Assembly: GCA_025353585.1 (NCBI GenBank)
Contig: JANXOM010000229.1
Coordinates: forward strand, 1-64,000
DNA: 64,000 nucleotides
Direction: 5' to 3'
Source of the DNA: Deltaproteobacteria bacterium
Lineage (GTDB): Bacteria > Myxococcota_A > Polyangia > Haliangiales > Haliangiaceae
In this document: positions 13,485 to 61,556 of the stretch, in pieces
How positions within the stretch are numbered: position 1 is the first letter of the stretch
Layout of the letters: each line of letters begins with the position of its first letter
Notes under the pieces: model-generated
What the model saw: the letters and a program-made list of their open reading frames with translations, nothing else
Told to the model about the DNA's origin: nothing
Database searches by the model: none
Made by a program: the position numbers and the translations under genes

Positions 13485-16400
13485 GCCTGTCCAAGCCACT
13501 CTCGCTGCTCGCGCTCGGCGCCACGCTGTACGGCAGCCTCGCCGCCGCGCAGCCGGGCGCTCCAGCGCCTGCCCCCGGTCCGACCCCTGCCCACAACGAG
13601 CCCGGCGCCACGGGGCCCGGCCTCGGCGCGCCCCGGCCGATCAACACGGCCCCCGTGAAGCTCGATCCGAAAGACATCGAGCAGCTCAAGGACAACGAGG
13701 CCGAGTACGAGCGCCTCCTGCTCGCCGCGACCGAGAACGACAAGCGCATGCGGCAGATCGCGAAGCGCGAGTACGACACGCGCAGCGGCGACCTCGACAA
13801 GCGCTACTCCGATCGGATCGCGAAGACGGAGGCGGATCGCATCCGCCGCCACACCGACACGATCGCGCTGCTCGAGAAGTTCCTCGTCAATCACCCGGCG
13901 CACGAGACCTTCACGCCGGACGCGATGTTCCGGCTCGCCGATCTCTACCTCGACGTCGCCGACGAGGAGGTCGAGCAGAAGCTCGCCGCGCAGGAGAAGT
14001 TCCTCAAGGATCAGGCCGCGAACGGCGTGGTCAACGGCACCGGCTCCGGTGCGGGCAGCGCGGCCACCGGCGGCACCGATGTCGCCGCGATCGTCGCGGA
14101 CTACTCGAAGTCGCTCGAGCTCTGGCAGCAGATCCTCACGAAGTTCCCGAGCTATCGCCAGACCCCGTCGACGCTCTATCTGCTCGCGTACTACGGCAAG
14201 ACCAAGGACGAGCGCCGCTCGCTCCAGGTCTTCCTCTCCCTGTCGTGCTCGAACAAGTACAAGTGGGACGGCAAGCCGGCCCCCGTGCCGACCCGCGCGG
14301 AGGCGATCAAGCGCGTCGAGGCAAAGTCCCTCCGCGATCCATACGCCGATTGTCAGCCGTATCCCGGCGCGGAGACCGAGCTCGTCCGCCACTCGTGGGT
14401 CCGCGGCGTCGCCGACTATCACTTCACCGTCCCGGGCGAGCTCGACGAAGCGATCGCCGCGTACCTGAAGGTCGCGGACACCGGTCAGGACAGCAAGCTG
14501 TTCGCCGAGGCGCTCTACAAGCTCGCGTGGAGCTACTACAAGCGCGACCAGCTGTTCGACTCGATCAAGCGGTTCGACTCGAGCGTGAAGCTCTACGACT
14601 CCGTCGTCGCGAGCGGCGGTCAGCCGGCCCTCGAGCTGCGCGAGGAGTCGATCCAGTACATCGCCGTCGCGTTCACCGATCCGTGGCAGGGCGAGTCGGA
14701 CACCGATCCGAGCAAGGCGTTCAAGCGCGCCACCGACTTCTACAAGGGTCGCGAGAACGAGCCGCACGTCCGCGACGTATGGGTCGCCCTCGGCAAGGCG
14801 TTCGCCGAGCTCCAGGCGTGGGATCAGGCCGTCGACTCCTACCGCATTGCCATCGGACCGCCGTGGGAGCTGAACCCCGGCGATCCCGTGGTCTACCAGG
14901 AGATCGTCAACACCTTCGAGGCGAAGGGCGACAAGTACGCCGCCGATCAAGCCGCGGCCGATCTCGCCACGAAGTACGCGCCGGGCACCGCCTGGTACAC
15001 GGCGAACGAGCACGACCGCGACGCGATGGACAACCAGCGCCGCATCTCCGAGCGCGCCCTCTACGCCGCCGCGATCAACACGAAGACCGCGGCGAAGAAC
15101 CTGCGCACGGACTACGAGAACGCGACCAAGAAGGACCCGCAGGCCAAGGCCGAGTACCTCGCGATGTACGCGAAGTCCGTGGAGCTGTTCCGCCAGTTCC
15201 TGCAGACGTACCCGGACTCGGACTACACGTACGAGTTCAACTACCAGGAGGGCGAGGCGCTCTTCTTCTCCGAGCACTACATGGAGGCCGCGACCCAGTA
15301 CCGCTGGGTGCGCGATCACCAGGACCTCGGCAAGACGCACTACATCGACGCCGCGCGCAGCGTGGTCGCCGCGTACGAGGCAGAGCGCGACGCGGAGATC
15401 GCGGCCGGCAAGCTGCCGTCGACGAAGGTCCTCTCGGCCGCCGAGCTCCGCGCGCTGCCGCAACCGCTCCAGCCGCAGCCGATCCCGGAGCTTTATGTCC
15501 AGCTCCAGGGCGAGTACGACAACTACCAGTCGCACGTGCAGGATCCCGCCGCGGCGCCGCAGCAGGGCATCAACGGCGCGATCATCTCGCTGACGTACCT
15601 GCACATGGACGACGCGGTGAAGCGCTTCCAGTCGGTCGTCACGCAGTTCTGCCATACGCCACCGCCGGATCCGAAGAACCCGAAGTCGCAGCCGCTCGCG
15701 GCGAAGGCGAAGGACGGCCTCCTCGGCATCTACGAGGCGACCGGCAACCTCGACGCGTTCGAGGCGACGAACAAGGCGTTCATCCAGAACGGCTGCGGCG
15801 ACAAGTCGTCCATCGACCTCGCCGTCAGCCAGAACCGCTCGCTGAACTTCCAGCGCGCGACGGCCCTGTTTGCCAAGCAGGACTACATCCCGGCCGGCGA
15901 CGCCTTCTACAAGTTCTACAAGACCGCGCCCCAGACCGACGCCGACCTCCCGACCGCGCTCTACAACGCCGCCGTCAGCTACAAGCTCGGCGATCGCCCC
16001 AAGACCGCGATCTCGCTGTTCAAGGAGTTCACCGCGAACCCCGCGAAGGCCTACCGCGAGAGCCCGTACTACCTCGACGCGATGCGCTTGACGGCCGCGA
16101 GCTACCAGGCCGCGTTCGACTACGACAACGCCGTCGCGACGTACCTCCAGCTTTTCGACACCTCGAAGAAGGCGAAGCGCCTCGGCATCAAGCCGCCACC
16201 GCCGCTGCCGGGCGAGAAGGCGACCACGCTCGACGAGATCGGGCTCAGCGCGATGTTCAACGCCGCGTTCGCCGCCGAGTTGAATCGCGACTTCAAGAAG
16301 TCGATCGACCTGTACACGCAGTACGGCCGCATCGAGCCCGACCACCGCAAGCAGGACCGCGCGCTGTGGGAGATCGCCGCGATCTACCGCCAGTCGGGTG

Positions 16401-17113
16401 ACGTCAACTCGATGACCGAGACTCTCGACCGCTGGCGCGCGCGCTACGGCAAGGACGCCGGCAACGAAGACGACTACGTGCAGTCGTTCTACGACACGGC
16501 CGCGCTCTACCTGCGCAAGGGTCGCGCCGCGCAGGCGCAGCAGTCGGGCCAGGCCACGATCGACGCGTGGCGCGCCCGCGGCAAGGTGCCGAAGAACCGC
16601 GGCGCCAAGCTCGCGGGCGAGTGGGAGCTCAAGTTCGCCGAGGACTACTACGCCAAGAGCTTCGACCCCTACGAGATCAAGAAGGCGGCCCCGAGCGTCG
16701 CCGTCCTGACCGCGCAGCGCGCCGACCTCGACCGCGTTCGCAAGGCCACCGAAGACAAGTACAAGGCGCTCGATGACTACCAGGTCGTCGAGTACTCGAT
16801 GGGCGCGCTGGTCCGCTTCGGCGACATCCAGTACGGGTACGGCCGCAAGCTGTCCGACGCGCCCGTCCCGACGCCGATCCAGAACGCCGCGAACCCGGAC
16901 GTCCTCGCCAAGTACGAGGCCGATCGCGACAAGGCCCTGGCGAAGTACCTCGCCGAGGCCAAGGCGGACTGGCAGCAGGTCGATCAGGCCGGCCGCCAGA
17001 ACGGGCTGTCGAACAAGTGGACTCAGCTCGCCCGCGAGAACCTCGGCCGCGAGTTCCCGGATGAGTTCAAGTCGTTGCACCAAGAGCTGGTGCAGGGGAC
17101 GGACGTGCCATGA
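13481..17113 (+). CDS. Large secreted TPR protein, GltD/AgmU- or NfsD-like
   Basis: 1210 residues from GTG at 13481 (overlapping the previous stop). A signal peptide (LSLLALGATLYGSLAAAQ) is followed by Pro-rich sequence and a coiled-coil start (DIEQLKDNEAEYERLLLAA). Many degenerate TPR repeats then occupy the rest (FTPDAMFRLADLYLDVADEE, LFAEALYKLAWSYYKRDQLF, YEFNYQEGEALFFSEHYMEA, ALYNAAVSYKLGDRPKTAI). Size, export signal and position before a TPR lipoprotein match the ~1200-residue GltD/AgmU and NfsD proteins, which form the periplasmic scaffold of the Myxococcus motility and spore-coat machines. Orthology is inferred from architecture and order. The 3' end overlaps the next gene by ATGA. Confidence 0.85.
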   Translation: MSLSKPLSLLALGATLYGSLAAAQPGAPAPAPGPTPAHNEPGATGPGLGAPRPINTAPVKLDPKDIEQLKDNEAEYERLLLAATENDKRMRQIAKREYDTRSGDLDKRYSDRIAKTEADRIRRHTDTIALLEKFLVNHPAHETFTPDAMFRLADLYLDVADEEVEQKLAAQEKFLKDQAANGVVNGTGSGAGSAATGGTDVAAIVADYSKSLELWQQILTKFPSYRQTPSTLYLLAYYGKTKDERRSLQVFLSLSCSNKYKWDGKPAPVPTRAEAIKRVEAKSLRDPYADCQPYPGAETELVRHSWVRGVADYHFTVPGELDEAIAAYLKVADTGQDSKLFAEALYKLAWSYYKRDQLFDSIKRFDSSVKLYDSVVASGGQPALELREESIQYIAVAFTDPWQGESDTDPSKAFKRATDFYKGRENEPHVRDVWVALGKAFAELQAWDQAVDSYRIAIGPPWELNPGDPVVYQEIVNTFEAKGDKYAADQAAADLATKYAPGTAWYTANEHDRDAMDNQRRISERALYAAAINTKTAAKNLRTDYENATKKDPQAKAEYLAMYAKSVELFRQFLQTYPDSDYTYEFNYQEGEALFFSEHYMEAATQYRWVRDHQDLGKTHYIDAARSVVAAYEAERDAEIAAGKLPSTKVLSAAELRALPQPLQPQPIPELYVQLQGEYDNYQSHVQDPAAAPQQGINGAIISLTYLHMDDAVKRFQSVVTQFCHTPPPDPKNPKSQPLAAKAKDGLLGIYEATGNLDAFEATNKAFIQNGCGDKSSIDLAVSQNRSLNFQRATALFAKQDYIPAGDAFYKFYKTAPQTDADLPTALYNAAVSYKLGDRPKTAISLFKEFTANPAKAYRESPYYLDAMRLTAASYQAAFDYDNAVATYLQLFDTSKKAKRLGIKPPPPLPGEKATTLDEIGLSAMFNAAFAAELNRDFKKSIDLYTQYGRIEPDHRKQDRALWEIAAIYRQSGDVNSMTETLDRWRARYGKDAGNEDDYVQSFYDTAALYLRKGRAAQAQQSGQATIDAWRARGKVPKNRGAKLAGEWELKFAEDYYAKSFDPYEIKKAAPSVAVLTAQRADLDRVRKATEDKYKALDDYQVVEYSMGALVRFGDIQYGYGRKLSDAPVPTPIQNAANPDVLAKYEADRDKALAKYLAEAKADWQQVDQAGRQNGLSNKWTQLARENLGREFPDEFKSLHQELVQGTDVP

Positions 17114-49984: not shown

Positions 49985-51244
49985 TCAGGCTCGCTGAGCC
50001 GCGCGTTCGGCGGCCCGCGCGGCGGCGGCCGCGGCGCGTGCCTCGCGTTCGGCCAGGCGTGTGGCCGCGAGCTCGGCCATGCGTTTTCGCTTGTCCTGGT
50101 CGTCGAGGTGGCGCAGCACCATCGCCATCCCGAGCATGACCCACATGTAGGTAAATCTCAGGCCTTGATGAACCATGCCGAAGGCGAATCCGGGCCCCAC
50201 GACGATCAGGATCCGGAAGCTGATGCCGCGGAGCGCCTGCCACAGGAACGCGGCGAACAGCGACACGCCGATGATCCCGTACGAGAAGAAGAGCGTGGCA
50301 CCTGACGAGTGCAGCTCGTGGGAGTGGATCATCGTCGTCTCGCTGAAGCGGTAGTAGTCGCCCTCGCCGGCGCCGAACAGCCAGTACTGGGGGTTGTTGT
50401 AGACGCGGTCATACCCGCGCTCCTCGAGGAGGCCGAACGACTGGTCGTTCTCGATGCGTTGCTGCGCTTTCTCGATCGCGCGCGAGAACGGGTTCGACGT
50501 GAGGCTCAAGACGGCGAGGACAACGACGGCGAGGATCATCGTGCGCAGCCGGCCGAACACGAGCGCGACGCCGAGCATCGCGATGCTGCCGAGCGCCGCC
50601 TTCGAGGCGGACATCAGCGCGAGGTAACAGCACGCCGTCAGACCGACGGTGACCTGCAGCGTGCTGAGCTGGAGGCGCTTGAGGCCGAGCAGCAACATGC
50701 AGGCGCTGAGCAGCGCGAAGTAACCTAGCTGGTTCGGGTTGTTGAACAGGAGCGACGACCGCAGCGCGTACCCGCGCATGAAGAACGAGATCAGGACCTG
50801 CAGGCAGACGGACAGCAAGATCACGCGCACGGTGATCCACAGGAAGCGAACGCGGTACCGCTCGAACATGAGCAGGAACACGAACAGCATCACGGCGTTG
50901 TAGATGTAGAACGTGGGGCTCAGCAGGAACCCGTGCTTGAGGTCGATGGAGAACGCGACGAGCGCGAACGACCACATCGTGTTGATGAGCAGCGCGTACG
51001 CGGTGAACAAGAGCAGCATGCGGAATGGCTTGCCGATGCCGAGCAAGCTGCCCTTCCAGCGGGTCAGCAGCGTCGGCAACAACATGATCGTCAGCCAGTC
51101 GGCGGGCTGCGGCAGACCGCTCGGCACCAGGTAGACCGGGAAGAAGATCAGGAACAGCGACCACATGAGCAGCGGCGGCTCGCTGATCACCTTCTTGGCC
51201 TCGGTGAGCGTGCTGCGGACGACGGTGGGCGCGGTGAGCTTCAC
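49985..51244 (-). CDS. Wzy-like O-antigen polymerase
   Basis: 419 residues from GTG at 51244 overlapping the upstream dehydrogenase stop. About ten to twelve membrane segments; the large periplasmic loop contains the ligase/polymerase-type motif FNNPNQLGYFALLSAC and HSHELHSSGATLFFSYGIIG. The C-terminus is a highly charged Ala/Arg/Glu helix (LAEREARAAAAAARAAER). It is the last gene of the long minus-strand operon and the second polymerase/ligase candidate in the window. Confidence 0.87.
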   Translation of the reverse strand: MKLTAPTVVRSTLTEAKKVISEPPLLMWSLFLIFFPVYLVPSGLPQPADWLTIMLLPTLLTRWKGSLLGIGKPFRMLLLFTAYALLINTMWSFALVAFSIDLKHGFLLSPTFYIYNAVMLFVFLLMFERYRVRFLWITVRVILLSVCLQVLISFFMRGYALRSSLLFNNPNQLGYFALLSACMLLLGLKRLQLSTLQVTVGLTACCYLALMSASKAALGSIAMLGVALVFGRLRTMILAVVVLAVLSLTSNPFSRAIEKAQQRIENDQSFGLLEERGYDRVYNNPQYWLFGAGEGDYYRFSETTMIHSHELHSSGATLFFSYGIIGVSLFAAFLWQALRGISFRILIVVGPGFAFGMVHQGLRFTYMWVMLGMAMVLRHLDDQDKRKRMAELAATRLAEREARAAAAAARAAERAAQRA

Positions 51245-52242
51245 GGTGCCTCGAGCGGCAGGACGCTGTTCCAGGCGGGCTCGCCGGACAGCACGCGGAG
51301 CGCTTCTTCGGCGGCCTTGCGCCGCATCTCCTCGACCGCCTCGGCCGAGTAAAACGCGCAGTGGGGCGTGATCAGCAAGCGGTCGCGGACGTCGGGCGCG
51401 CCGGCCATCCAGTCCCGGATCAGCGGATCTGTCGGGTCGGCCGGCTCTGCTGGCAGCACGTCGAAGCCCGCGCAGCGGACGTGCCCGCTGCGAAACGCGG
51501 CCGTGAAGGCGGCCCAGTCGAGGACCGGGCCACGCGCGGTGTTGATGACGACGAGCCCCCGGCGCGCCGCGGCGAAGAACTCGGCTCCGACGAGGCCGCG
51601 GGTCGACTGCGTCAGCGGCACGTGCAGGCTGACGACGTCGCTGGCGGCGGCGAGCTCGGCGAGCGAGCGATAGCAGGTGAGCCCGAGCGCCTTGTCCCAC
51701 CCCTGCGGCTTGTACGGATCGTAGTAGGCGACCTGCATCCCGAACGCCTTGGCCCGGAGCGCCGTGGCCGTGCCGATCCGTCCGAGCCCGACGATCCCGA
51801 GCGTCTTCCCCGTGAGCCGGAACGAGGGGGCCAGGCCCCAGCTCCACACGCCGCCCCGCGCCACGCGGTCGTTGCTGGCGAGCCCCCGCGCCAGGCCGAG
51901 CAGCAGCGCGAGCGCGTGGTCGGCGACATCGTGCGTGCCGTAGTCGGGGACGTTGCAGACCTCGATCCCGCGAGCGCGCGCGGCCGCCAGGTCGACGTTG
52001 TCGAAGCCGACCCCGACGCGGACGATGACCTTGCACTGCCAGAGCGACGCGAGCACGTCCGCGGTCCAGCCGATGTCATGCCACGCGAGGATCGCGTCGG
52101 CGTCCTCGATGCGGCCGCGGAGCTCGGCGGCGCTCGTCGCGTGGAGGGCCCGCACGGTCGCGCGCGTGCCGAACACCGCCTCCTCGACCGTCGCCGGCGC
52201 CGTGACCCGGTCCGGGATCACGACCGTCCACGGCGCGCTCAC
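51241..52242 (-). CDS. D-isomer-specific 2-hydroxyacid dehydrogenase (CtBP/PGDH-like)
   Basis: 333 residues from GTG at 52242. NAD loop GLGRIG (152-157), VRVGVGFDNVDL, catalytic Arg237 (INTARGPV), Glu266 and His294 (ITPHCAF) are all in place, so it should reduce a 2-keto acid or oxidise a D-2-hydroxyacid with NAD(H). It is close in form to CtBP-like and phosphoglycerate dehydrogenases but lacks the ACT domain of SerA. Four-base overlaps on both sides couple it to the FAH-like gene and the Wzy gene, so it probably serves the glycan, not central metabolism. Confidence 0.92.
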   Translation of the reverse strand: MSAPWTVVIPDRVTAPATVEEAVFGTRATVRALHATSAAELRGRIEDADAILAWHDIGWTADVLASLWQCKVIVRVGVGFDNVDLAAARARGIEVCNVPDYGTHDVADHALALLLGLARGLASNDRVARGGVWSWGLAPSFRLTGKTLGIVGLGRIGTATALRAKAFGMQVAYYDPYKPQGWDKALGLTCYRSLAELAAASDVVSLHVPLTQSTRGLVGAEFFAAARRGLVVINTARGPVLDWAAFTAAFRSGHVRCAGFDVLPAEPADPTDPLIRDWMAGAPDVRDRLLITPHCAFYSAEAVEEMRRKAAEEALRVLSGEPAWNSVLPLEAP

Positions 52243-53060
52243 GAAGCGCCCTCCGCGACGAACTCGGTGACCAGCGTCCCGAGCCCCGCGATCTCGAGCG
52301 TGGCGCGGCTCCCGACGTGCACGAGCGCCTGGCGCGCGCCGCGCGGCGTCCCTGTCATCACCACGTCCCCCGGCTCGAGGGTCATGAGCCGCGACAAGAA
52401 CAGGACCGACGCGTACGTGTCGAGGACGCGATTGGCGGTGGTCGAGTCCTGCATCACGCGGCCGTCGACGGTCGTCCGCATGTGGCGATCGGCGTCGTCG
52501 AAGCCGCGCACGAGCTCGGGCCCGAGCGGACAGAACCCGTCGAGGCTCTTCGAGCGCGCGAGGTGCCAGTCGCGGCCGAGCACGTTGAGGGCCGTGATGT
52601 CGTTGCCGACCGTCACGCCGAAGACGGCGGCCCGGGCGGCGGCGGTGTCGGCGAGGTTGCGCGCGCGCTGGCCGATCACGGCCGCGACCTCGACCTCGAC
52701 CCACACCTCCGTCGCATCCGCGCGCAACGCGACGCGCGCGGTCGGGCCGGCGAGGCAGTTCGGACCCTTCACGAAGAGGACGGGCTCGAAGCCCGGGTCG
52801 GTGAAGTGCGCCTCGCGCGCGCTCGTTCGCGCGGCCGGATCTTCGAAGAGGTCGCGATAGTTGTAGCCGAGGGCCACGATCTTCGTCGGCTCGGCCGGCG
52901 CGAGCAGCGTCGCGTCGGCGGCCGCCACGACCACGCCCGTCTCGCTCGCATCTGTCCACGGCGCCTGCGCGAGCACGTGCACGCGCGCCGCCCGGCGCGT
53001 GCCCCAGCGCGGGGTCGGCACGTCGGCCGTCGTGAACCGGATGTAGCGGAGCTCGGTCAT
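52239..53060 (-). CDS. Fumarylacetoacetate hydrolase (FAH)-fold enzyme
   Basis: 273 residues from ATG at 53060 overlapping the cytidylyltransferase stop (ATGA). The C-terminal FAH domain shows IVALGYNYRDLFED, VWVEVEVAAVIGQ (metal Glu pair), GVTVGNDITALNVLGRDWHL, SKSLDGFCPLGP, and PGDVVMTGTPRGARQ. FAH-fold enzymes hydrolyse, decarboxylate or hydrate/tautomerise 2-keto acids at a metal site. In this context it probably acts on a keto-acid intermediate shared with the downstream 2-hydroxyacid dehydrogenase. The precise reaction is unknown. Confidence 0.9.
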   Translation of the reverse strand: MTELRYIRFTTADVPTPRWGTRRAARVHVLAQAPWTDASETGVVVAAADATLLAPAEPTKIVALGYNYRDLFEDPAARTSAREAHFTDPGFEPVLFVKGPNCLAGPTARVALRADATEVWVEVEVAAVIGQRARNLADTAAARAAVFGVTVGNDITALNVLGRDWHLARSKSLDGFCPLGPELVRGFDDADRHMRTTVDGRVMQDSTTANRVLDTYASVLFLSRLMTLEPGDVVMTGTPRGARQALVHVGSRATLEIAGLGTLVTEFVAEGAS

Positions 53061-53788
53061 GCGTAGGGCGTGCGCGTCTCGGTGAAGCCGGCGGTGCGCA
53101 AGAAGTGCTCCACCATCGGGAACTGCCACTCGAAGTCGATGTCGCAGCCGCCCTCCTGATGCATCGGGTGCACGGTGCGCCCGATCCAGCGAAACGGGAT
53201 CTCGCCGCGGCTGTAGTCGAAGCACCGCGGCCGCAGCACGAACACCGAGCAGTCGACGAAGTAGGTGTCGCCCTGGCTATCGCGGTCGCAGGTGGCCTCG
53301 CCGAACAGCGCCGGATCGACGAACGGCTTGACGAGCCCGTCCTCGATGCGCCGCGCTCGCAGCGCGCTGAACATGTTGTACTTGCTGACCGTCACGGCGG
53401 AGTCGTGGTCCGGGTGCTCGCGCAGGAAGCGGATGCCCTGGTCGATGATGCCCGGGGTGATGGTCGCGCCGTTGGCGAACAGGAGCACGACAAATTCGAT
53501 CTCCCCGGTCGCGCGCGCGCGGATGGCCTCGTAGCCGTGCTTGAACGCGTCCTCGGCGAGCGCCTCGTTCGTCGCGAGGAACGCCGGGCGCTCGATGTAC
53601 TGGCAGCCCTGCGCGTCGGCGATCGCGTGGATCTGCTCGCAGTCCGTGGACACGAACACGTCCGTGACCTCCCGCGCGTTCTTCGCGGCGAGGATCGGGT
53701 AGAGCGCGAGCGGCCGGCCGAGCAGCGGGCGGACGTTCTTGTCCTTCACGCGGCTTCCTTTGCGACCGATGATGAGCGTCGGGATCAT
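53057..53788 (-). CDS. CMP-sugar-type cytidylyltransferase (acylneuraminate family), divergent
   Basis: 243 residues from ATG at 53788. The nucleotide loop reads IIGRKGSRVKDKNVRPLLGRPL, related to but different from the IPARGGSKGIPRKN motif of CMP-Neu5Ac synthetases. DVFVSTDCEQIHAIA, ERPAFLATNEALAEDAFKH and FVVLLFANGATITPGIIDQG follow the family order. It should transfer CMP from CTP to an acidic sugar, Kdo-like acid or phosphonate/phosphate-type acceptor. No nonulosonate or Kdo synthase lies nearby. It is coupled to the HAD and FAH genes. Confidence 0.87.
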   Translation of the reverse strand: MIPTLIIGRKGSRVKDKNVRPLLGRPLALYPILAAKNAREVTDVFVSTDCEQIHAIADAQGCQYIERPAFLATNEALAEDAFKHGYEAIRARATGEIEFVVLLFANGATITPGIIDQGIRFLREHPDHDSAVTVSKYNMFSALRARRIEDGLVKPFVDPALFGEATCDRDSQGDTYFVDCSVFVLRPRCFDYSRGEIPFRWIGRTVHPMHQEGGCDIDFEWQFPMVEHFLRTAGFTETRTPYA

Positions 53789-54546
53789 GTGCGGGGCTCC
53801 TCGTGCGCGTGGAGCGCACGTTCGAGATCGGAGAGCTGAAGACAGGGGAGGCCGGCTGTCAAGGAGCGGGCTTCGTCGTCGGGCGCGAGGTAACCCCACA
53901 GGGCGAGGTGCGCGGCGATCCCGTGCTGGCGCGCCGGGAGCGCGTGCTGCACGTAGTCGTCCACGAAGAAGAGGTCCGCCGGCGCGAGCGCGCGGTCGCG
54001 TGCCGTCTCGAGCAAGATCTCCCACTTCTCCTGCTGCGCGGAGCGGGGGAGGTGGCTGGCCGGAGAGAGCGCGGCGCCGTGGTGCGCGCAGATCGCGGCG
54101 ATCGAGCGGTCGTCGCGCGTGGACAGGATCGCGGCGCACCCGCGCGCGAGCCGCGCCCGGAACAGGTCCAGCGCCACGACGTGGGGCGTGATCAAGTCGA
54201 GCCAGCGCGGCTCCTGCGCGAGCACGGTGCGCTCCGCGAAGTAGGCCTCCGTGAAGCTCTCGACCGCTGGCCGGCGCGCCTGCGCCAGCGCGCGAAACGC
54301 CTCCGGCGCGGCCGGGACCTCGCCGCGCGCGAGGCACTCGAGCAGCACCGCGAACTGCCATGGCGGCCCGACGTGATAGCGATACCGCGCGAACTCGCTC
54401 GCGAGCGCGGCGGTCGGCCGCTCGGGCCAAGCGGCCGCGAACGTCCACCGCGCCACGTCCGCGCGCACCGTCCGGTACGCGACCTCGAGGCACTCGCGCG
54501 CCGAGTCGAACAGGACGCCGTCGAAGTCGAAGACGAAGAGCGTCAC
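53785..54546 (-). CDS. HAD-superfamily phosphatase
   Basis: 253 residues from GTG at 54546 overlapping the GAPDH-like stop. Motif I FVFDFDGVLFDS (nucleophile Asp7, acid Asp9), motif II ILSTRDD, and motif III/IV DLFFVDDYVQHAL are present, with a large helical cap at ~20-130. It is likely a small-molecule phosphatase acting just before or after the cytidylyltransferase. Substrate unknown. Confidence 0.88.
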   Translation of the reverse strand: MTLFVFDFDGVLFDSARECLEVAYRTVRADVARWTFAAAWPERPTAALASEFARYRYHVGPPWQFAVLLECLARGEVPAAPEAFRALAQARRPAVESFTEAYFAERTVLAQEPRWLDLITPHVVALDLFRARLARGCAAILSTRDDRSIAAICAHHGAALSPASHLPRSAQQEKWEILLETARDRALAPADLFFVDDYVQHALPARQHGIAAHLALWGYLAPDDEARSLTAGLPCLQLSDLERALHAHEEPRT

Positions 54547-55583
54547 CCGGCCGCCACCAGATCAAGCGCGTCGACGACGCGGCTGGAGTAGCCCCACTCG
54601 TTGTCGTACCAGAGCACCAGCTTGAGCTGCCGGCCCCGGTTCAGCATCAGCCAGCGCGTGTCGATGATGCAGGAGTGGGAGTCGCCGAGGTAGTCGGTCG
54701 AGACGAGCGGCTCGTCGGTGATGCGGATGACCTCGCGCGTGCCCTGCGAGGCGCGCAGCGCGTGGAGGACCTCGAGCACGCTCTCCTCGGTGGCCTCGCG
54801 CTCGAGGTGCAGGCTCAGGTCCGCGCTCGAGACGCACGCCGTGGGCACGCGGTACGACATCGACTTCAGGAGGCCCGTGATCTCCGGCACGATGCGCTCG
54901 CACGCGCCGACGACGGTGGTCGGCTTGGGGATCAGCGAGCCGACGGACGCGCGCCCGAGCGCGTAGTGCGAGTGCGTGCTGCCCGGGTAGGCCTGCGACC
55001 GCGACGGGCCGTCCATCAGGTTCTGATACGAGAGCCAGGGGTGGAGCGTGGTGATGAAGCCGTAGTCCACGCCGAACCGCGCGTGGAGCGCGCGCATGAC
55101 CGGCGCGACCGCGCAGGCGTCGCAGATGCTCGTGGAGACGATCCGGTGCTGGGCCGGATCGAACGCCTTCTCCGTGGCGCCGAAGACGAGCGTGAAGTCG
55201 GCGGTGGGCGCGGCGTGGGTGACGAGCACCGAGCGCATGCGCGGGATCAGCGCGCGCGCGTGCTGCTCGTTGCGGGTGACGCCGGTTGCCTCGATGACGA
55301 CGTCCACGCCCGCTCCGCTCCAGTCGACCTCGGCGATGTCCGGCTGGTGCGTGACGGGGACCCGCCGGCCGGCGATGGCCAGGGCCGCCCCGTCGGCGCG
55401 GACCTCCCCGCCGAGCTTGCCGTAGGTCGTGTCGTATTTGAGCAGGTACGCGAGGTTCGCGACGTCCGCGTTCAGATCGTTGATGTGCACCAGCTCGTGG
55501 TGCCCGCGCGCGAGCAAGATGCGCGCGATGGCGCGGCCGATGCGACCGAACCCGTTGAGACCGATGCGAAGTGGTGGCGTCAT
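54543..55583 (-). CDS. Glyceraldehyde-3-phosphate dehydrogenase-like protein with altered active-site motif
   Basis: 346 residues from ATG at 55583 overlapping the upstream stop. The NAD fold is canonical (IGLNGFGRIGRAIARIL, HINDLNADVANLAYLLKYD), as is the C-terminal WYDNEWGYSSRVVDAL. The active-site segment reads STSICDACAVAP where glycolytic enzymes have SNASCTTNCLAP. Cys154 and His181 are kept, but the Thr and Asn next to the cysteine are changed. It is embedded in a polysaccharide operon, so it is more likely a specialised aldehyde-phosphate dehydrogenase than the housekeeping gapA. Confidence 0.9.
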   Translation of the reverse strand: MTPPLRIGLNGFGRIGRAIARILLARGHHELVHINDLNADVANLAYLLKYDTTYGKLGGEVRADGAALAIAGRRVPVTHQPDIAEVDWSGAGVDVVIEATGVTRNEQHARALIPRMRSVLVTHAAPTADFTLVFGATEKAFDPAQHRIVSTSICDACAVAPVMRALHARFGVDYGFITTLHPWLSYQNLMDGPSRSQAYPGSTHSHYALGRASVGSLIPKPTTVVGACERIVPEITGLLKSMSYRVPTACVSSADLSLHLEREATEESVLEVLHALRASQGTREVIRITDEPLVSTDYLGDSHSCIIDTRWLMLNRGRQLKLVLWYDNEWGYSSRVVDALDLVAAG

Positions 55584-56752
55584 GAAGTCCTCAGCTCGTC
55601 CAGGCAAGTTGCGATGCGCGCGGCTGCTTCGCCGCGATGAGCCATGTGGTGCTCGAGGTACGCGCCGGCCGCGCGCGTGTCCGCCGCGCCGGCCGCGAGC
55701 AGCTGCCCGACGTCCGCCGCGAGCGTGGACAGGCGGAGCGGCCGCGCGGCCCCCGACGAGACGTAGTCGAACACGTGCCCGTGCCCCGGGATCTCGAGCA
55801 CGCCGAGCGGCAAGCCGAACGCGAGCGCCTCGAGGCCGACCGTCGAGGCGAGGACCACGGCGGCGTGACCCATCGCCAGCACGGCGAACAGCGGCTCGGC
55901 GCCGAGGACATGGACGCCGGGGAGATCGCGGGCGGCGGCGCGGAAGGCGTCGACGCTCTCGCGCGCGTGCAGCTTGACGACGATCGCGCGGTCCGCCGCG
56001 GCGGCCACCGGCCGTGCCTTGCGCAGGAACCGGGTGAACAGCGCGAGCTTCTCCGCGGTCGTGCAGAAGCCCTGATCGTCGATGGTGTTCGAGAGATACA
56101 CGAGCGGCGCGCGGGTCAGCCCGAGGCGGGCCGCGAGCGCGCGACCGTCCGCCGCCCACGCGCGGGGCTCGACCTCGTCGAAGCGCGGGTTGCCCGTGAC
56201 ATGGATGCTGCGGGCCGGCGCGCCGACGGCGCGGAAGTGAGCCGCCGATGCCTCGCCCCACACGCAGATCGCGCTCGCGCCGCTGCTCCCGTACGCGTGG
56301 CCGGCCGTCGTCTCCGTCGGCAGCGGGAACCGGATGCCCTCCTGCAAGAGCGCGAACGGCGTCGTGTGCGTGCGCAGGCTCGCGGCGAGCTCGCCGTACG
56401 GGAACGCTGCGTCGTTCGGGACGGCAACGACCGCGCTGCCGCGGAGCCACCACCGCAAGCTCGGCTGCAAGGCGAGGCGCCAGAGCATCCGGGTCGCGAG
56501 CTGGCGCGCGCGCGCGCCGCGGCCGCCGTTCGTCCCGAGTCCCGCGCCGGCCGACGGACTCCGGCGGATCCGCGGGAGCGCGCTGTGCAGCGCGACGCCG
56601 GGGAGGCGCGCCGCGAGATCGGGCGTCGGGAAGCCCCGGAGGCCCGTCAGCGACACGAACTGGCACGCGGTGCCGCGCGCGCGGAGCTCGCGGGCGACGG
56701 GGACCATCATGTCGAGGTGGTGCCTGGGGTTCGAGAAGACGAAGGAGATCAT
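55580..56752 (-). CDS. Glycosyl/glycerophosphotransferase-like GT-B protein
   Basis: 390 residues from ATG at 56752 (MISFVFSNPRHHLDMMVPVA). The upstream alternative start overlaps the previous gene and adds no homology. Features include ALLQEGIRFPL, VTGNPRFDEV, LVYLSNTIDDQG, IVVKLHARESVDAF and VVLASTVGLEALAFGLPLG, the pattern of CDP-glycerol glycerophosphotransferase and capsule-type GT-B proteins. If that relation is right, it could use the product of the cytidylyltransferase three genes downstream. Exact family is uncertain. Confidence 0.75.
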   Translation of the reverse strand: MISFVFSNPRHHLDMMVPVARELRARGTACQFVSLTGLRGFPTPDLAARLPGVALHSALPRIRRSPSAGAGLGTNGGRGARARQLATRMLWRLALQPSLRWWLRGSAVVAVPNDAAFPYGELAASLRTHTTPFALLQEGIRFPLPTETTAGHAYGSSGASAICVWGEASAAHFRAVGAPARSIHVTGNPRFDEVEPRAWAADGRALAARLGLTRAPLVYLSNTIDDQGFCTTAEKLALFTRFLRKARPVAAAADRAIVVKLHARESVDAFRAAARDLPGVHVLGAEPLFAVLAMGHAAVVLASTVGLEALAFGLPLGVLEIPGHGHVFDYVSSGAARPLRLSTLAADVGQLLAAGAADTRAAGAYLEHHMAHRGEAAARIATCLDELRTS

Positions 56753-57879
56753 GCGTGCGTCCCGGCGATCGCCGCTTCGTAGCACGCCAGCGAGGCTGCG
56801 GTCGTGAACCGTCGCGCGCTGTCTCGGGCGCGCTGGCCGAGCCCGGTCGCGAGCGCGGGGTCGTCGAGCACCTGCAGCGTCCGGGCCGCGAGCTGGGCGC
56901 TGTCACCGACGGGGACGAGGTAGCCGTCCTCGCCGGTCGTGATGATCTCCCGCGGCCCGAAATCGCAGTCGGTCGAGACGACCGGGGTGCCGCATGCCAT
57001 CGCCTGCACGAGCGCGCCGGGGAGGCCCTCCGCCCGGCTCGCGTGCAAGACGAGCGTCGCGCGCGCCATGTACTTGAAGGGGTTCTTGTCGAAGCCGAGG
57101 AAGGCCACGTCGCGCGCGAGGCCGAGGGCGGCGACGCGGTCGACGAGCTCGTCGAGGAGCGGGCCTTCGCCGAGGATCACGAGGCGCGCCGAGCGGCTCG
57201 CGCGGATCGTGGCGAACGCCGCGAGCAGCGTCGGGTAATCCTTGATCGCGACGAGCCGGCCGACCGCGAGGATGACCGGCGTGCGATCGCCGGCGGCGAA
57301 GAACGGATGATCGACGGGCGCGGCGGCGAGCGGGCCGAGCTCGTCATCGACGATTGGGTTGTAGATCGTCACGACCTTGGCCGCGGGGAGCCCGAGGCGA
57401 GCCACGAGATCCGCGGCGAGGCCGCGCGAGACGGCGGTCACGAGATCCGCGCGCCGATAGCTCAGCCGCTTCACCCGGTTCTCGAGGAGCCGACGCAGAT
57501 AGCCGCGGTCGGTGCGGATCAGCGCGCTGCGCTCCGACAGCACGAGCCGGGCGCGCGACCGGGCGAGCGCGTGCGCGAGCGCGACGATCACGTTCGACCC
57601 GCCGTGCATCGAGAAGACGATGTCGGGCTGCGTGGCGCGGATGACCCGAGCGAGAGCGGGCGCGGACACGGCGAGGCGCGCCGTGCCCAGCACGTGGACG
57701 GGGACATCCGCCGGCACCTCGTCCGCGAGCTGGCCGGTGCGGCGCACGAGCACGAGCTGCGGGGCGAAGCGCGCGCGGTCGAGGAGGCGCAGCAACGTGA
57801 TCACGACCCGATCCGCGCCGCCGGTGGCCAGCGCCGGACAGAACACGAGGACGCGCCGCGCCGGGGGAGCACCCACCAT
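56749..57879 (-). CDS. Glycosyltransferase family 4
   Basis: 376 residues. The N-terminus VLVFCPALATGGADRVVITL has the glycine loop typical of GT4 enzymes using UDP-HexNAc donors. IYNPIVDDEL, AVGRLVAIKDYPTLLAAF, LGEGPLLDEL, FLGFDKNPFKYM, SRAEGLPGALVQAMACGTPVV complete the GT-B signature. It lies three bases after the PglD-like gene and may be the enzyme that uses its product. It overlaps the next gene by ATGA. Confidence 0.93.
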   Translation of the reverse strand: MVGAPPARRVLVFCPALATGGADRVVITLLRLLDRARFAPQLVLVRRTGQLADEVPADVPVHVLGTARLAVSAPALARVIRATQPDIVFSMHGGSNVIVALAHALARSRARLVLSERSALIRTDRGYLRRLLENRVKRLSYRRADLVTAVSRGLAADLVARLGLPAAKVVTIYNPIVDDELGPLAAAPVDHPFFAAGDRTPVILAVGRLVAIKDYPTLLAAFATIRASRSARLVILGEGPLLDELVDRVAALGLARDVAFLGFDKNPFKYMARATLVLHASRAEGLPGALVQAMACGTPVVSTDCDFGPREIITTGEDGYLVPVGDSAQLAARTLQVLDDPALATGLGQRARDSARRFTTAASLACYEAAIAGTHA

Positions 57880-57882
57880 GAC

Positions 57883-58506
57883 TTAGATGCCAGCGCGGCG
57901 GATTTGTTCGCGCGCCGGCACGCCCACGGCCACGATATCGGCCGGGAGCGCCGAGACGACGACCGCGCCGGCGCCGACGATGGTCCGGGCGCCGATGGAC
58001 CGGTTGGGCGTGACCGACGCGCCGATGCCGATGAAGACCTCGTCGCCGACCCGGACCCCACCGGCCAGGCGCGCCCCCGGCGCGATGTGGACCGCCTCGC
58101 CAAGGGTGCAGTCGTGGTCGACCGAGGCGCCGGTGTTCACGATGCCGTGCGCGCCGATGCGGGTATCGGGCTGCACGATGGCGCCGGCAAACACGACGGT
58201 CCCCGGCCCGAGCGTGACCGACTCGTGCACGACGGCGGCGGGATGGACCACCGTCGCGAAGCGGCAGCTCGCGGCGGTCCCCAGGCGGCGGCGGGTCGCG
58301 TTGTGGCCGATCGCGAGCACGCACGTCTGCGCGGGGTCGCCCAGCGCGTCCGCACATGGCCCGGTCACGGGAATGCCGAGGAGGGCGGTGCCCCAGCGCG
58401 CCGGGTCGTCGTCGTGCACGGCGGCGACGTCCCAGCCCGCCGCGCGCGCGGTCGCGATCACGACCTTCGCGTGTCCACCGGCGCCGACCACGACCAGCAC
58501 CGGCAT
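57883..58506 (-). CDS. NeuD/PglD-type sugar O/N-acetyltransferase
   Basis: 207 residues. The N-terminal small Rossmann part VLVVVGAGGHAKVVIATA is followed by a left-handed beta-helix of hexapeptide repeats (VVHPAAVVHESVTLGPG, IVQPDTRIGAHGIVNTG, SVDHDCTLGEAVHIAPG) with the catalytic-type His in VDHDC. The family contains PglD (UDP-4-amino-sugar N-acetyltransferase) and NeuD. Directly downstream of an aminotransferase and a PglF-like dehydratase, PglD function is favoured. Confidence 0.9.
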   Translation of the reverse strand: MPVLVVVGAGGHAKVVIATARAAGWDVAAVHDDDPARWGTALLGIPVTGPCADALGDPAQTCVLAIGHNATRRRLGTAASCRFATVVHPAAVVHESVTLGPGTVVFAGAIVQPDTRIGAHGIVNTGASVDHDCTLGEAVHIAPGARLAGGVRVGDEVFIGIGASVTPNRSIGARTIVGAGAVVVSALPADIVAVGVPAREQIRRAGI

Positions 58507-59622
58507 CTAGGCCGGCGTGGCCTGGACCGCCGCCACGACGCGCTCGAGGTCCGCGCCGGTGAGCCCCGAGCCGCTCGGCAAGCACAGCCCCGTGTGGAAC
58601 AGGTCGGCGGCCACGGCGCCCCCGAACACGCGCGCGCCCGCGAACACCGGCTGGAGGTGCATGGGCTTCCAGACCGGTCGCGCCTCGATGTCGACGGCGG
58701 CGAGGCTCGCGATCAGCGCGTCACGCCGCGCGGGCGAGCCGACGGTCACGCACGTTAGCCAGAACGTGGAGCTCCCGAAGCTCGCCTCGGGCATGAACGT
58801 CCACCCGGGCCGCTCGCCGAGCGTCGTGCGGTAGTGCTCGCGAATCGCGCGCCGGCGCGCGACGCGGCGCTCGAGATCGGCGAGCTGGACGCGGCCGACC
58901 GCGGCGAGGAGGTTGCTGAGCCGGTAGTTGTAGCCGACCTCCCGGTGCTCGTAATGCGCGACCGGCTCGCGCGCCTGCGTCGCGAGGAAGCGCGCGCGGT
59001 CGATCCACTCCTTGCGGGCACCGAGGAGCATGCCGCCGCCCGACGTCGTGATGATCTTGTTCCCGTTGAACGAGAGCACCGCGAGGTCGCCGAACGAGCC
59101 CGCCGGCTTGCCGCGATACGTGGCGCCGAGGGCCTCGGCCGCGTCCTCGACGAGCCAGACGCCGTGGCGCTTGCAGGCGGCCGCGATCGGCTCGAGGTCC
59201 GCGCACTGGCCGTACAGATCCACGACGATCACGGCCTTGGGCAGCTCGTTCGCGCGCGCGGCCCGCTCGAGCTCGTCGACGAGGATGCCGGGATCCATGT
59301 TCCAGCTGGCGCGCTCGCTGTCGAGGAACACGGGGGTGGCCCCGACGTAGGCGATCGCGTTCGCGGTCGCGGCGAACGTGAGGGTAGAGGTCCAGACGCG
59401 GTCGCCGGCGCCGACGCCGAGCACGAGCAGCGCGAGGTGGAGCGCGGCCGTACCGCTCGAGAGCGCGAGCGCGTACGGGACGCCGAGCCGTGCGCTCATC
59501 TCGGCCTCGAAGCCATCGACGTGGGGGCCGAGCGGCGCGATCCAGTTCGACGCCACCGCCTCGCCGAGCATCGCGAGCTCGCCGCCGGCGAGGTCCGGCG
59601 CCGACAGGTAGATCCGCGGCAT
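58507..59622 (-). CDS. DegT/DnrJ/EryC1 sugar aminotransferase, PglE-like
   Basis: 371 residues from ATG at 59622, overlapping the PglF-like stop by one base. LSSGTAALHLAL, WTSTLTFAATANAIAYVG, EDAAEALGATYRGKPAGSFGD and SFNGNKIITTSGGG (PLP Lys189) are the class signatures, and the sequence closely follows the PglE/LegC pattern. It would transaminate the C4 keto group of a UDP-4-keto-6-deoxy-HexNAc using glutamate and PLP. Context, between dehydratase and acetyltransferase, supports that. Confidence 0.93.
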   Translation of the reverse strand: MPRIYLSAPDLAGGELAMLGEAVASNWIAPLGPHVDGFEAEMSARLGVPYALALSSGTAALHLALLVLGVGAGDRVWTSTLTFAATANAIAYVGATPVFLDSERASWNMDPGILVDELERAARANELPKAVIVVDLYGQCADLEPIAAACKRHGVWLVEDAAEALGATYRGKPAGSFGDLAVLSFNGNKIITTSGGGMLLGARKEWIDRARFLATQAREPVAHYEHREVGYNYRLSNLLAAVGRVQLADLERRVARRRAIREHYRTTLGERPGWTFMPEASFGSSTFWLTCVTVGSPARRDALIASLAAVDIEARPVWKPMHLQPVFAGARVFGGAVAADLFHTGLCLPSGSGLTGADLERVVAAVQATPA

Positions 59623-61556
59623 CAGGTCACCGCGACCGCATCGCGCACCACGGCCGCGCCGTCCGACCGCCGCCCGACCTTGCCGTTACTGTTGCCGGGC
59701 GGCGGGGCCGGTGCGCGGCTCGCGCCCGTGTACTCGGGTACTAGCGTGTGCAGCGCGGCGCGGATCAGGTCCGGCGAATCGACGAGCGCGAGGAGATCGT
59801 CGAGGGCCGCGGCCGCATCGACCCACGCGCTCGCCGGGATCCGCCCGACGAAGATCTTCGGGTGCTTCGTCGCGTCCGTGTGCTCGCCATCGGTGGCCAG
59901 CTCCTCGAAGAGCTTCTCCCCGGGGCGGACGCCACTGAACTCGATCGCGATGTCCTCGTCCGGCTTGAGGCCCGAGAGCTTGATGAGGTCGCGCGCGAGA
60001 TCGACGATCTTCACCGGGTTCCCCATGTCGAGGATGAAGATCTCGCCGCCCTGGCCCATCGCGCCGGCCTGGAGCACGAGCTGGCTCGCCTCGGGGATCG
60101 TCATGAAGTAGCGCTCCATGTCGGGGTGCGTGATGGTGATCGGGCCGCCCTTCGCGATCTGCTGGCGGAAGATCGGGATCACGCTGCCGTTCGACCCGAG
60201 CACGTTGCCGAACCGCACCGTCACGAAGCGGGTCTTGCTGCTCTTGCCGCGCAGCTGCGAGTAGATCTCCGCGACGCGCTTGGTCGCGCCCATCACCGAC
60301 GACGGATTGACGGCCTTGTCGGTCGAGACCAGCACCACGCGCCCCACGCCGTGGCGGTCGGCGAGGTCCACGATCACGCGCGTCCCGCCCACGTTGTTCT
60401 TCACGGCCTCGCCGGGGTTGGCTTCCATCATCGGCACGTGCTTGTGCGCGGCGGCGTGGAAGACGATCGCGGGCAGGGCGCTGATGAAGACCTGCTCCAT
60501 GCGCACGCGGTCCGTCACGTCACCGATGCGGGGCTCGATGCAGAGCTCCGGGAACGCGCCGATCAACTCGCGATGAATCTCGAACAGCGCGTTCTCGAAG
60601 CGCTCCACGAGCACGAGCCGCCGCGGCGAGAAGCGGCAGATCTGGCGGCAGAGCTCGCTGCCGATGCTGCCGCCCGCGCCGGTCACCATCACGACCTGAT
60701 CGCAGATCGACAGCGACACCTCGGCCTGGTCGAGCTGCACCGGCTCGCGTCCGAGGAGATCGTCGATCGCGACCTCGCGGATGCGCGAGAGATTCACGCG
60801 ATCGCCGACGATCTCGTAGATGCCGGGGATGATCTTGGTCTCGAGCCCCGCCTCCTGGCAGGCGAGCGTGATCCGGCGGATGTCGCTTCCGGCGGCGCTG
60901 GCGATCGTGATCAAGGCCCGCTCCACGTGCTGGCGCCGCGCGATCTCCGCGAGCTCGGCGATCGTCCCGAGGACCGGCAGCCCGCAGATCTGCGAGCCGA
61001 CCTTGCGGCGATCGTCGTCGAGAAAGCCGACCGGGTGGAGGCCGAGGTCGGGGCGGGCGGCGAGCTCGCGGGCCACGAGGTAGCCGGCCTGACCGGCGCC
61101 GATCAGGAGAACGCGGGCCCGGGCGCGCGCGGCGGCCGGGGCCTTGCGCTCGCGCGTCTCGCCGTAGACCCGGCGCAGCGCTCGGACGCCGACGAGCAGG
61201 ACAAAGCTGAGGACGAGGTTCGAGAGGATGACGCCCAACGGCAACACGCCGATGGCCACCATCGCGCCGAGGCCGAACCGGATGACGACGAGCACCGCCG
61301 CGGAGACGAGCACCGCGAGTCCGATCCGCGCGGCCTCGGGCAGGCCGACGTAGCGCCACGAGAAGCGCGGGACGTTGAACGCCCAGAGCACGCCGTACGC
61401 GAGGAACACCGAGATCGGCCACTGCAGGACGGCGACGCGGAGCCAGGCATCCGGGATCTGGAGCTCGAAGCGGCAGATAAACGCGAGCCAGAACGCGAGG
61501 GACAGGACCGACACGTCCAGTGCGACTTGCACGCCTCTGTAGAGGTAGCGGGGCAT
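59622..61556 (-). CDS. Membrane UDP-GlcNAc 4,6-dehydratase, PglF/CapD-like
   Basis: 644 residues from ATG at 61556. Four or five N-terminal membrane segments (~10-125), then a CoA-binding-like Rossmann domain (VLLIGAGQAGYLVARELAAR), then the catalytic SDR domain starting VMVTGAGGSIGSELCRQI. The active site about residues 405-425 reads STDKAVNPSSVMGATKR, with Met in place of the usual Tyr of YxxxK, as in PglF, FlaA1 and CapD. It converts UDP-GlcNAc to the 4-keto-6-deoxy sugar at the inner membrane. The C-terminal ~30 residues are a Pro/Gly/Ala-rich extension. Confidence 0.94.
   Translation of the reverse strand: MPRYLYRGVQVALDVSVLSLAFWLAFICRFELQIPDAWLRVAVLQWPISVFLAYGVLWAFNVPRFSWRYVGLPEAARIGLAVLVSAAVLVVIRFGLGAMVAIGVLPLGVILSNLVLSFVLLVGVRALRRVYGETRERKAPAAARARARVLLIGAGQAGYLVARELAARPDLGLHPVGFLDDDRRKVGSQICGLPVLGTIAELAEIARRQHVERALITIASAAGSDIRRITLACQEAGLETKIIPGIYEIVGDRVNLSRIREVAIDDLLGREPVQLDQAEVSLSICDQVVMVTGAGGSIGSELCRQICRFSPRRLVLVERFENALFEIHRELIGAFPELCIEPRIGDVTDRVRMEQVFISALPAIVFHAAAHKHVPMMEANPGEAVKNNVGGTRVIVDLADRHGVGRVVLVSTDKAVNPSSVMGATKRVAEIYSQLRGKSSKTRFVTVRFGNVLGSNGSVIPIFRQQIAKGGPITITHPDMERYFMTIPEASQLVLQAGAMGQGGEIFILDMGNPVKIVDLARDLIKLSGLKPDEDIAIEFSGVRPGEKLFEELATDGEHTDATKHPKIFVGRIPASAWVDAAAALDDLLALVDSPDLIRAALHTLVPEYTGASRAPAPPPGNSNGKVGRRSDGAAVVRDAVAVT

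Follow-up and report, generated by a model that had tools for sequence, protein, structure and literature searches.

How does a polysaccharide operon furnish its cytidylyltransferase with an acidic substrate when no synthase of the usual kind lies beside it? The question is raised by the window analyzed here, a stretch of 64,000 nucleotides (G000:C32:1-64000; 70.6% GC over 64 kb) from the assembly of a Deltaproteobacteria bacterium (G000; 8.0 Mb, 437 contigs, 89.9% complete). It carries a cassette of five enzyme genes, coding for a GAPDH homologue (gap), a HAD-type hydrolase (had), a cytidylyltransferase (cmt), a FAH-fold enzyme (fah) and a D-2-hydroxyacid dehydrogenase (hdh). To our knowledge, NeuB or KdsA is considered necessary for those acids of bacterial glycans that are activated with cytidine monophosphate (CMP). 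From its sequence we tentatively read the cassette as supplying a surface polysaccharide with a 2-keto (ulosonic-type) acid in CMP-activated form, by a dedicated route that works without a phosphoenolpyruvate (PEP)-dependent NeuB/KdsA synthase. This is the reading that we favor, with doubt still slightly outweighing confidence.

The genes lie on the minus strand in the order gt4 - gtb - gap - had - cmt - fah - hdh - wzy-like. A sequence-only reading of this DNA had described the five enzyme genes and a GT-B protein as joined by ATGA/GTGA overlaps, with a Wzy-type polymerase gene last. Indeed, all seven junctions, from gt4/gtb through hdh/wzy-like, share 4 nt (ATGA or GTGA). The same reading had noted that no NeuB- or KdsA-type synthase stood alongside, and neither NeuB (PF03102) nor KdsA (TIGR01362) was found on the window's contig, C32. 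Searching the remainder of this contig, to position 88,205, with the five cassette profiles gave no further match.

The gap gene (54543..55583, minus strand) codes for a GAPDH-superfamily aldehyde dehydrogenase (PF00044/PF02800) of a separate subfamily, marked by a SICDA / HPWLSYQ signature. It scores 256.1 bits with TIGR01534 (cut-off 367.2) and 208.6 bits with the Epd model TIGR01532 (cut-off 530.55), and the tree places it apart from Epd. A 100/100 branch splits the 14 gap homologues from GapA, Epd, three GAPDHs encoded on plasmids and the second GAPDH of the bacterium itself. Cys149, His176, Thr208, Arg231 and Asn313 are retained in all 14. The same 14 proteins have Ile148, Asp150, Pro177-Trp178, Leu179, Tyr181, Lys206 and Thr/Ser209, positions at which E. 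coli GapA has Ser148, Thr150, Ala-Thr, Thr179, Thr181, Ser206 and Gly209. We take Ser148, Thr150, Thr179 and Gly209 to be the GAPDH phosphate-site residues. Both phosphate sites are therefore altered, which argues against plain glyceraldehyde-3-phosphate as substrate and against phosphorolysis. The earlier suggestion that a plain aldehyde phosphate is oxidized is thus less supported, with the phosphate-site residues changed in 14/14. A GAPDH copy with canonical motifs is present elsewhere in G000, on C33. An additional GAPDH-family gene was found beside the cassette copy in five of six genomes searched; in the Prochlorococcus genome G379 the cassette copy was the only one found.

The hdh gene (51241..52242, minus strand, GTG start; PF00389/PF02826) codes for a D-2-hydroxyacid dehydrogenase sharing 33% identity with SerA and 25% with PdxB. 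Its Arg237/Glu266/His294 triad is retained in 9/9 homologues and also in SerA and PdxB. In pyridoxal-phosphate synthesis of E. coli, the GAPDH-fold aldehyde dehydrogenase Epd is followed by the D-2-hydroxyacid dehydrogenase PdxB, giving a 2-keto acid phosphate. The cassette resembles this system in pairing a GAPDH-fold enzyme with a D-2-hydroxyacid dehydrogenase, but its gap falls outside the GapA/Epd group and the cassette continues to a nucleotide-activated product.

The fah gene (52239..53060, minus strand) codes for a FAH-fold metal-dependent 2-keto-acid enzyme (PF01557, 156.4 bits). As in FAHD1 and YcgM (oxaloacetate decarboxylase/tautomerase, acylpyruvase), the fold, the ExE and Asp metal ligands and the active-site Lys are kept, the residues in 8/8 copies. 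Unlike these enzymes, fah stands in a glycan operon and the His of the FAHD1-type NYxxH motif is replaced in 8/8, by Leu (6), Gln (1) or Val (1). The His30-Glu33 dyad of FAHD1 is proposed to generate hydroxide during acylpyruvate hydrolysis (PMC8398924). Since fah lacks the dyad His, hydrolysis is less likely, and metal-enolate chemistry could still operate. The had gene (53785..54546, minus strand, GTG start) codes for a HAD-superfamily hydrolase, presumably a phosphatase. It reaches 25.3 bits with PF00702, slightly under the cut-off of 26.4, and its catalytic residues Asp7/Asp9, Lys174 and Asp196-197 are invariant in 4/4 aligned copies.

The cmt gene (53057..53788, minus strand) codes for a cytidylyltransferase of a divergent PF02348 subfamily (39 bits, cut-off 22.6). 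Its best NCBIfam match is PseF (TIGR03584; 60.8 bits, cut-off 205.7) and the KdsB subfamily models give at most 25.4 bits; it stays below every listed NCBIfam cut-off, these known-sugar models included. The NeuA-family nucleotide motif and the DxD are retained. However, where NeuA-like enzymes have a PTSP-type motif, the window's cmt reads LLFANGxT. FxNGxT occupies this segment in 7/7 bacterial cmt copies linked to gap and fah, and other aligned relatives are mostly of the FxNA type. As far as is known, PF02348 enzymes activate the anomeric hydroxyl of 2-keto acids. This chemistry, together with the presence of hdh alongside gap and cmt, points to a 2-ulosonic-type acid.

The cassette is a real, conserved pathway unit. 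With GAPDH as bait, 377 genomes of the window's phylum were searched (E<=1e-80); three, own genome counted, held gap-subfamily matches, and three other same-genus genomes sampled gave none at this threshold. Genome G320, of the same phylum, carries gt4-gtb-gap-had-cmt-fah-hdh-neuD, in the order of the window and with 47-79% identity. In G305, also of this phylum, cmt-fah adjoins gap-hdh in opposite orientation. A cmt alignment built from the window, G320 and G305 copies was used to scan genome contigs, and 158 pattern matches yielded five confirmed relatives, two of them the query's own G320 and G305 contigs. All three new loci hold gap, fah and hdh. An Oligoflexia metagenome-assembled genome (MAG) shows gap-had-cmt-fah-hdh, the gene order of the window; a KSB1 MAG shows the slightly rearranged gap-had-fah-cmt-hdh; and Prochlorococcus AG-347-G20 (G379, a single cell) shows gap-hdh-SDR-fah-cmt (SDR, short-chain dehydrogenase/reductase). 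Four of the five families, had missing, are thus found in G305 and Prochlorococcus.

In profile searches at E<=1e-35, bait included in each count, the Oligoflexia MAG's phylum returned 8 of 290 genomes, the KSB1 MAG's phylum 3 of 82 and the genus Prochlorococcus 4 of 266; at E<=1e-40, the Prochlorococcus phylum returned 1 of 386. Among the 12 new bacterial loci from these phylum and genus searches, gap was found in L051 and L049 only; the cassette is therefore rare and patchy in distribution. L051, of the KSB1 phylum, reads gap-had-fah-cmt-hdh, and all five families occur, slightly rearranged, in two KSB1-phylum genomes. By eye, a small antitoxin/PIN-like pair lies on the opposite strand between gap and had of this locus (L051:6258-6897). 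L049 holds a variant by Pfam, gap-had-B12 radical SAM-hdh-KARI-cmt (L049:3777-10115 and 14717-16873; KARI, ketol-acid reductoisomerase), with thiamine-pyrophosphate-dependent E1-type genes downstream. This variant suggests a branched-chain version of the product.

The families also diverge in parallel. Their pairwise identities correlate with r = 0.76-0.93 (7 loci; 5 for had), although common descent of the organisms would also produce some correlation. In all four families that the loci have in common, the window's protein is more similar to the Oligoflexia copy than to the G305 copy, as expected of unit-wise transfer.

Viral contigs carry related gene sets. Scanning IMG/VR with the gap alignment gave 26 pattern matches and, from these, six viral contigs. 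L040, L041 and L043 are near-copies in which a HAD-type gene is followed by gap, a PF02348 cytidylyltransferase, fah and hdh (families assigned by Pfam on L043 only). L038 (8004-11333) and L039 (8007-11856) show gap - cytidylyltransferase - HpcH/HpaI aldolase - hdh, with a 130-aa gene between gap and the cytidylyltransferase in L039, and the L042 contig ends about 500 nt past gap. The HpaI proteins that replace fah retain DAEH plus the E and D motifs. HpcH/HpaI class II aldolases (HpaI, GarL, YfaU) share with fah this place in the cassette and the use of 2-keto-acid substrates, but they belong to a different Pfam family (PF03328) and none lies in the window. A viral scan with cmt added four contigs, two of them near-copies; gap is missing from these, and cmt is accompanied by a more distant hdh. 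No match was obtained by cmt tblastn of a phage collection. In plasmids, gap tblastn (E<=1e-60) found 14 GAPDHs, all at most 41% identical, and cmt tblastn three distant matches (30.7-37.3% identical); no gap, fah or hdh lay within 9 kb of these three, by an incomplete gene table.

Of the 14 gap-subfamily loci, three of which are near-copies, 13 have both hdh and a cytidylyltransferase no more than 5 kb from gap; in the remaining one the contig ends. As an additional enzyme, ten loci have fah, two have HpaI and one (L049) has KARI, the last locus being cut off by the contig end. The sequence-only reading had proposed a coupled unit and a search for its gene order in other genomes. The coupling was borne out: these families are found side by side in further phyla and on viral contigs, and the order is identical in G320 and the Oligoflexia MAG. 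Homologues scattered through close relatives were not seen, given that the three same-genus genomes sampled have no gap-subfamily match at E<=1e-80 and that, where the subfamily occurs, the genes are linked in 13/14 loci.

Synthases were also looked for beyond the contig. G000 has a strong NeuB on C432 and a weaker NeuB match on C290. About 1 kb from the C432 gene lies a cytidylyltransferase-like gene, SpsF-type by eye, which the cmt profile matches at E=4e-5 and the KdsB model at 45.2 bits. The surrounding stretch (L062, G000:C432:13000-32000) is a separate NeuB cluster with, by eye, PseB/PseC/PseG-like genes next to this SpsF-type gene. NeuB was not found in G320 or Prochlorococcus G379, KdsA was not found in G000 or G379, and G000 has no KdsB over the cut-off; KdsA exceeds it in G320, G305, G377 and G378. 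By these searches of a genome about 90% complete, the G000 bacterium may make no 3-deoxy-D-manno-octulosonate (Kdo). The alternative that the sequence-only reading had named, an ordinary CMP-Neu5Ac or CMP-Kdo enzyme, thus seems a poor fit for cmt, the strong NeuB having another cytidylyltransferase-like gene nearby on C432 and G000 being without KdsA and without KdsB over the cut-off.

Here we infer the substrates, the carbon number, the direction and order of all steps and the transferase role of gtb. On the proposed route, the most economical reading, gap would oxidize a sugar or sugar-phosphate aldehyde to the carboxylate, with thioester hydrolysis probable over phosphorolysis. Following the logic of the Epd/PdxB pair, hdh would turn the 2-hydroxyl of this acid into a 2-keto acid. 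The fah protein would then act as a metal-enolate enzyme at C3 of the 2-keto acid, by epimerization or tautomerization, or by aldol extension with an aldehyde, which is considered because an HpaI aldolase replaces fah in two loci. HpaI-family enzymes provide a precedent, being able to convert hydroxypyruvate plus glyceraldehyde or erythrose into 3,4-dihydroxy-2-oxo acids (PMC7610986). Removal of the phosphate by had would be followed by linkage of CMP to the anomeric 2-OH by cmt. Finally, gtb and gt4 would insert the residue into the repeat unit, to be polymerized by the Wzy-like protein. Together with cmt, hdh occurs in 13/13 untruncated gap loci and in about half of the bacterial loci that lack gap; this agrees with cmt acting on a 2-keto acid but does not prove it. 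On the same side, matches to the hdh profile lie near gap-less cmt relatives in 5/7 bacterial loci from the Oligoflexia and KSB1 phylum searches (0.1 to 7.4 kb) and in 4/4 viral loci (two near-copies). A broader version, which we hold with more doubt, is that several bacterial phyla and viruses make CMP-activated 2-ulosonic acids by oxidation and independently of PEP, that the new GAPDH subfamily is its entry, and that exchangeable FAH, HpaI and KARI enzymes yield different undescribed glycan acids.

Several observations weigh against the oxidative, synthase-free route. In ten cmt-relative loci (L044-L048, L050, L052, L074-L076) the stretch read contains neither gap nor fah, and five of these loci lack hdh as well. 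All counts of hdh proximity stand without a background rate of hdh-family genes near polysaccharide genes. The Oligoflexia MAG and one of the KSB1 MAGs have NeuB on the very stretch that holds the cassette, so these two loci do not show independence from the synthase; in the former, two divergently oriented genes, a NeuB gene (Pfam) and a cytidylyltransferase-like one, immediately precede gap (L008:6410-8151). The synthase absences come from incomplete genomes, G000 being 90% and G320 82% complete and G379 a single-cell genome. Oxidation of a 2-hydroxy acid is energetically uphill, and hdh may run as a reductase. FAH, HpaI and KARI need not catalyze one common step. Near the cassette genes of G305 and Prochlorococcus no had was found, and the window's had shares only 21-23% identity with had of the KSB1 loci. 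The cytidylyltransferase belongs to another subfamily in L043, its near-copies and L038, with a PTSP-type segment in L043, and membership of PF02348 leaves the acceptor of cmt unfixed. As for the parallel with Epd, gap shares less identity with it (32%) than with GapA (36%) or with the housekeeping GAPDH of the same bacterium (40%). Epd, too, deviates at 179 (Met) and 209 (Lys), but it retains Ser148 and Thr150.

The main rival is that fah, or HpaI in its place, is itself the missing synthase, a reading that we consider rather unlikely. A metal-bound pyruvate or hydroxypyruvate enolate would be joined, in an aldol or Claisen reaction, to a carbonyl supplied by gap, either an enzyme-bound or free activated acyl group or an aldehyde; hdh would supply hydroxypyruvate or later reduce the keto group, and had and cmt would finish in Kdo style. 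A class II pyruvate-type aldolase does replace fah in L038 and L039, and loss of the His that is proposed to help form hydroxide in FAHD1 would suit synthesis over cleavage. FAHD1 and HpaI-family enzymes act on 2-keto acids through a bound metal (PMC8398924 and PMC7610986). However, the KARI in the place of fah at L049 forms no aldol bond, pyruvate and simple aldehydes require no dehydrogenase, and the changes at Ser148/Thr150 make a free acyl phosphate unlikely. Less probable again is a non-sugar substituent, in which gap, had and hdh would make a glycerate-, erythronate- or lactate-like acid, transferred from a CMP or cytidine diphosphate (CDP) intermediate by gtb as a CDP-glycerol-type transferase. 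The gene set and the weak TIGR04396 match of gtb agree with this, but gtb has no Pfam match, and glycerate would need no dedicated GAPDH homologue, 3-phosphoglycerate being a common metabolite. Moreover, PF02348 enzymes act, as far as is known, on an anomeric hydroxyl, and a plain-alcohol CMP ester cannot donate an acid by C-O cleavage. The glycerate-like unit proposed in the sequence-only reading is thus less supported than a 2-ulosonic-type acid, to which this chemistry and the company of hdh with gap and cmt point; its new CMP-activated acidic unit stands as the best reading.

We regard it as very improbable that cmt is an ordinary CMP-nonulosonate or CMP-Kdo synthetase, served by a synthase elsewhere and set beside unrelated metabolic genes. 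PF02348 membership, the PseF top match and the NeuB elsewhere in G000 speak for it. Against it stand the scores below all listed NCBIfam cut-offs, the altered substrate-side motif, the cytidylyltransferase-like neighbor of the strong NeuB, the lack of both NeuB and KdsA in the searches of Prochlorococcus G379 and the parallel divergence of the five genes. An ordinary Neu, Pse, Leg or Kdo enzyme (neuraminic, pseudaminic or legionaminic acid, or Kdo) was rejected on the cut-offs, the motif, the location of NeuB and the missing KdsA and over-cut-off KdsB in G000. Polysaccharide loci are mosaic, and the five genes might be chance neighbors in a variable locus; this has a negligible probability and is refuted by recurrence of the gene set, the same families being overlapping or closely spaced across several phyla and viral contigs.

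The proposed oxidative route has a known counterpart in the Kdo and nonulosonate (Neu, Pse, Leg) pathways, which end with a HAD phosphatase and a PF02348 CMP-transferase and place an acidic product in a surface glycan, as the cassette would with its presumed phosphatase had and with cmt. The cassette differs in having no PEP-dependent synthase and in bringing gap, hdh and fah (or HpaI/KARI) instead; its cmt differs from NeuA in lacking the PTSP-type motif. Since it resembles a CMP-ulosonate pathway and yet the defining synthase was not found in the window, we class it as a variant of that pathway type. If the reading is true, it would add a further way in which aldoses can enter acidic residues of glycans without NeuB/KdsA and a new job for the GAPDH fold. 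The HPWLSYQ gap subfamily and the FxNG-type cmt would then be marker genes for a sugar that might be wrongly annotated as sialic-acid-like where genes are labeled by family name.

Among the papers listed by searches of open-licence PMC full text, preprints excluded, no matching description of the gene set was found, nor did a literature search on pentulosonic or hexulosonic acid in polysaccharides give a gene cluster. A title cited in PMC10433991 gives 4-deoxy-2-hexulosonic acid, a capsule hexulosonic acid other than Kdo, for the E. coli K3 antigen, and the same paper states that K3 is still to be genetically determined. A link to K3 was considered and gained no supporting evidence: blastn of E. 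coli genomes with cmt gave no match, though a nucleotide comparison of this kind overlooks distantly related proteins, and nothing on K3 was found in the available parts of PMC13171606 and PMC13171598. The plant acid Dha (3-deoxy-lyxo-heptulosaric acid; PMC12168206) was also considered as product, likewise with no supporting evidence.

Around the five enzyme genes lie putative glycan-assembly genes, all on the minus strand. The gtb gene (55580..56752) codes for a GT-B-like protein that is a candidate transferase for the CMP-activated product. It is 59% identical to the gene in the same place in G320 and was found in 2 of 282 Myxococcota genomes, own included (E<=1e-15); plasmid tblastn and the viral scan gave no match. 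Its described resemblance to glycerophosphotransferases is weak: TIGR04396 ('surf_polysacc') matches at 47.5 bits, under its cut-off of 125, but Pfam Glyphos_transf does not match at E<=0.001. Neither gtb nor the wzy-like protein has a Pfam family at this threshold. The gt4 gene (56749..57879) codes for a family-4 glycosyltransferase (PF00534/PF13439; 55% identity to the G320 gene), and the wzy-like gene (49985..51244, GTG start) for a Wzy-like membrane polymerase/ligase. A protein with 29% identity to the latter is encoded in G320, also on the same contig. By eye, GT29-like genes (G305, L007:7439-9112 and 13063-14856) and a GT42-like gene (L043:6624-7352) were seen in other loci; they are unconfirmed and unused as evidence.

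Upstream of the cassette, on the same strand, are a NeuD/PglD-type acetyltransferase gene (57883..58506; TIGR03570 211.9 bits, cut-off 160.8), a LegC/PglE-type aminotransferase gene (58507..59622; TIGR04181 358.8 bits, cut-off 420) and, named by eye from a gene call, a PglF/CapD-type nucleotide-sugar dehydratase gene (59622..61556), with a nucleotide-sugar dehydrogenase gene also recognized by eye. We take these to be the usual set for an N,N'-diacetylbacillosamine (diNAcBac)-type sugar, and the acetyltransferase probably serves this separate sugar.

The cmt relatives without gap and fah have neighbors of their own. By eye, several of them (L045-L048, L052, L074, L075) stand beside a HAD, a HisC-type aminotransferase or a radical SAM/SPASM protein. 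In L048 and L052 the cmt relative lies beside a gene of the 6-phosphogluconolactonase/glucosamine isomerase family (PF01182), and in L074 and L075 beside a SIS-domain-like gene that scores just below the cut-off. These last two kinds of neighbor hint at chemistry leading from a sugar phosphate to an aldonate, and the gap- and fah-less cmt relatives perhaps make a second, different CMP-activated product.

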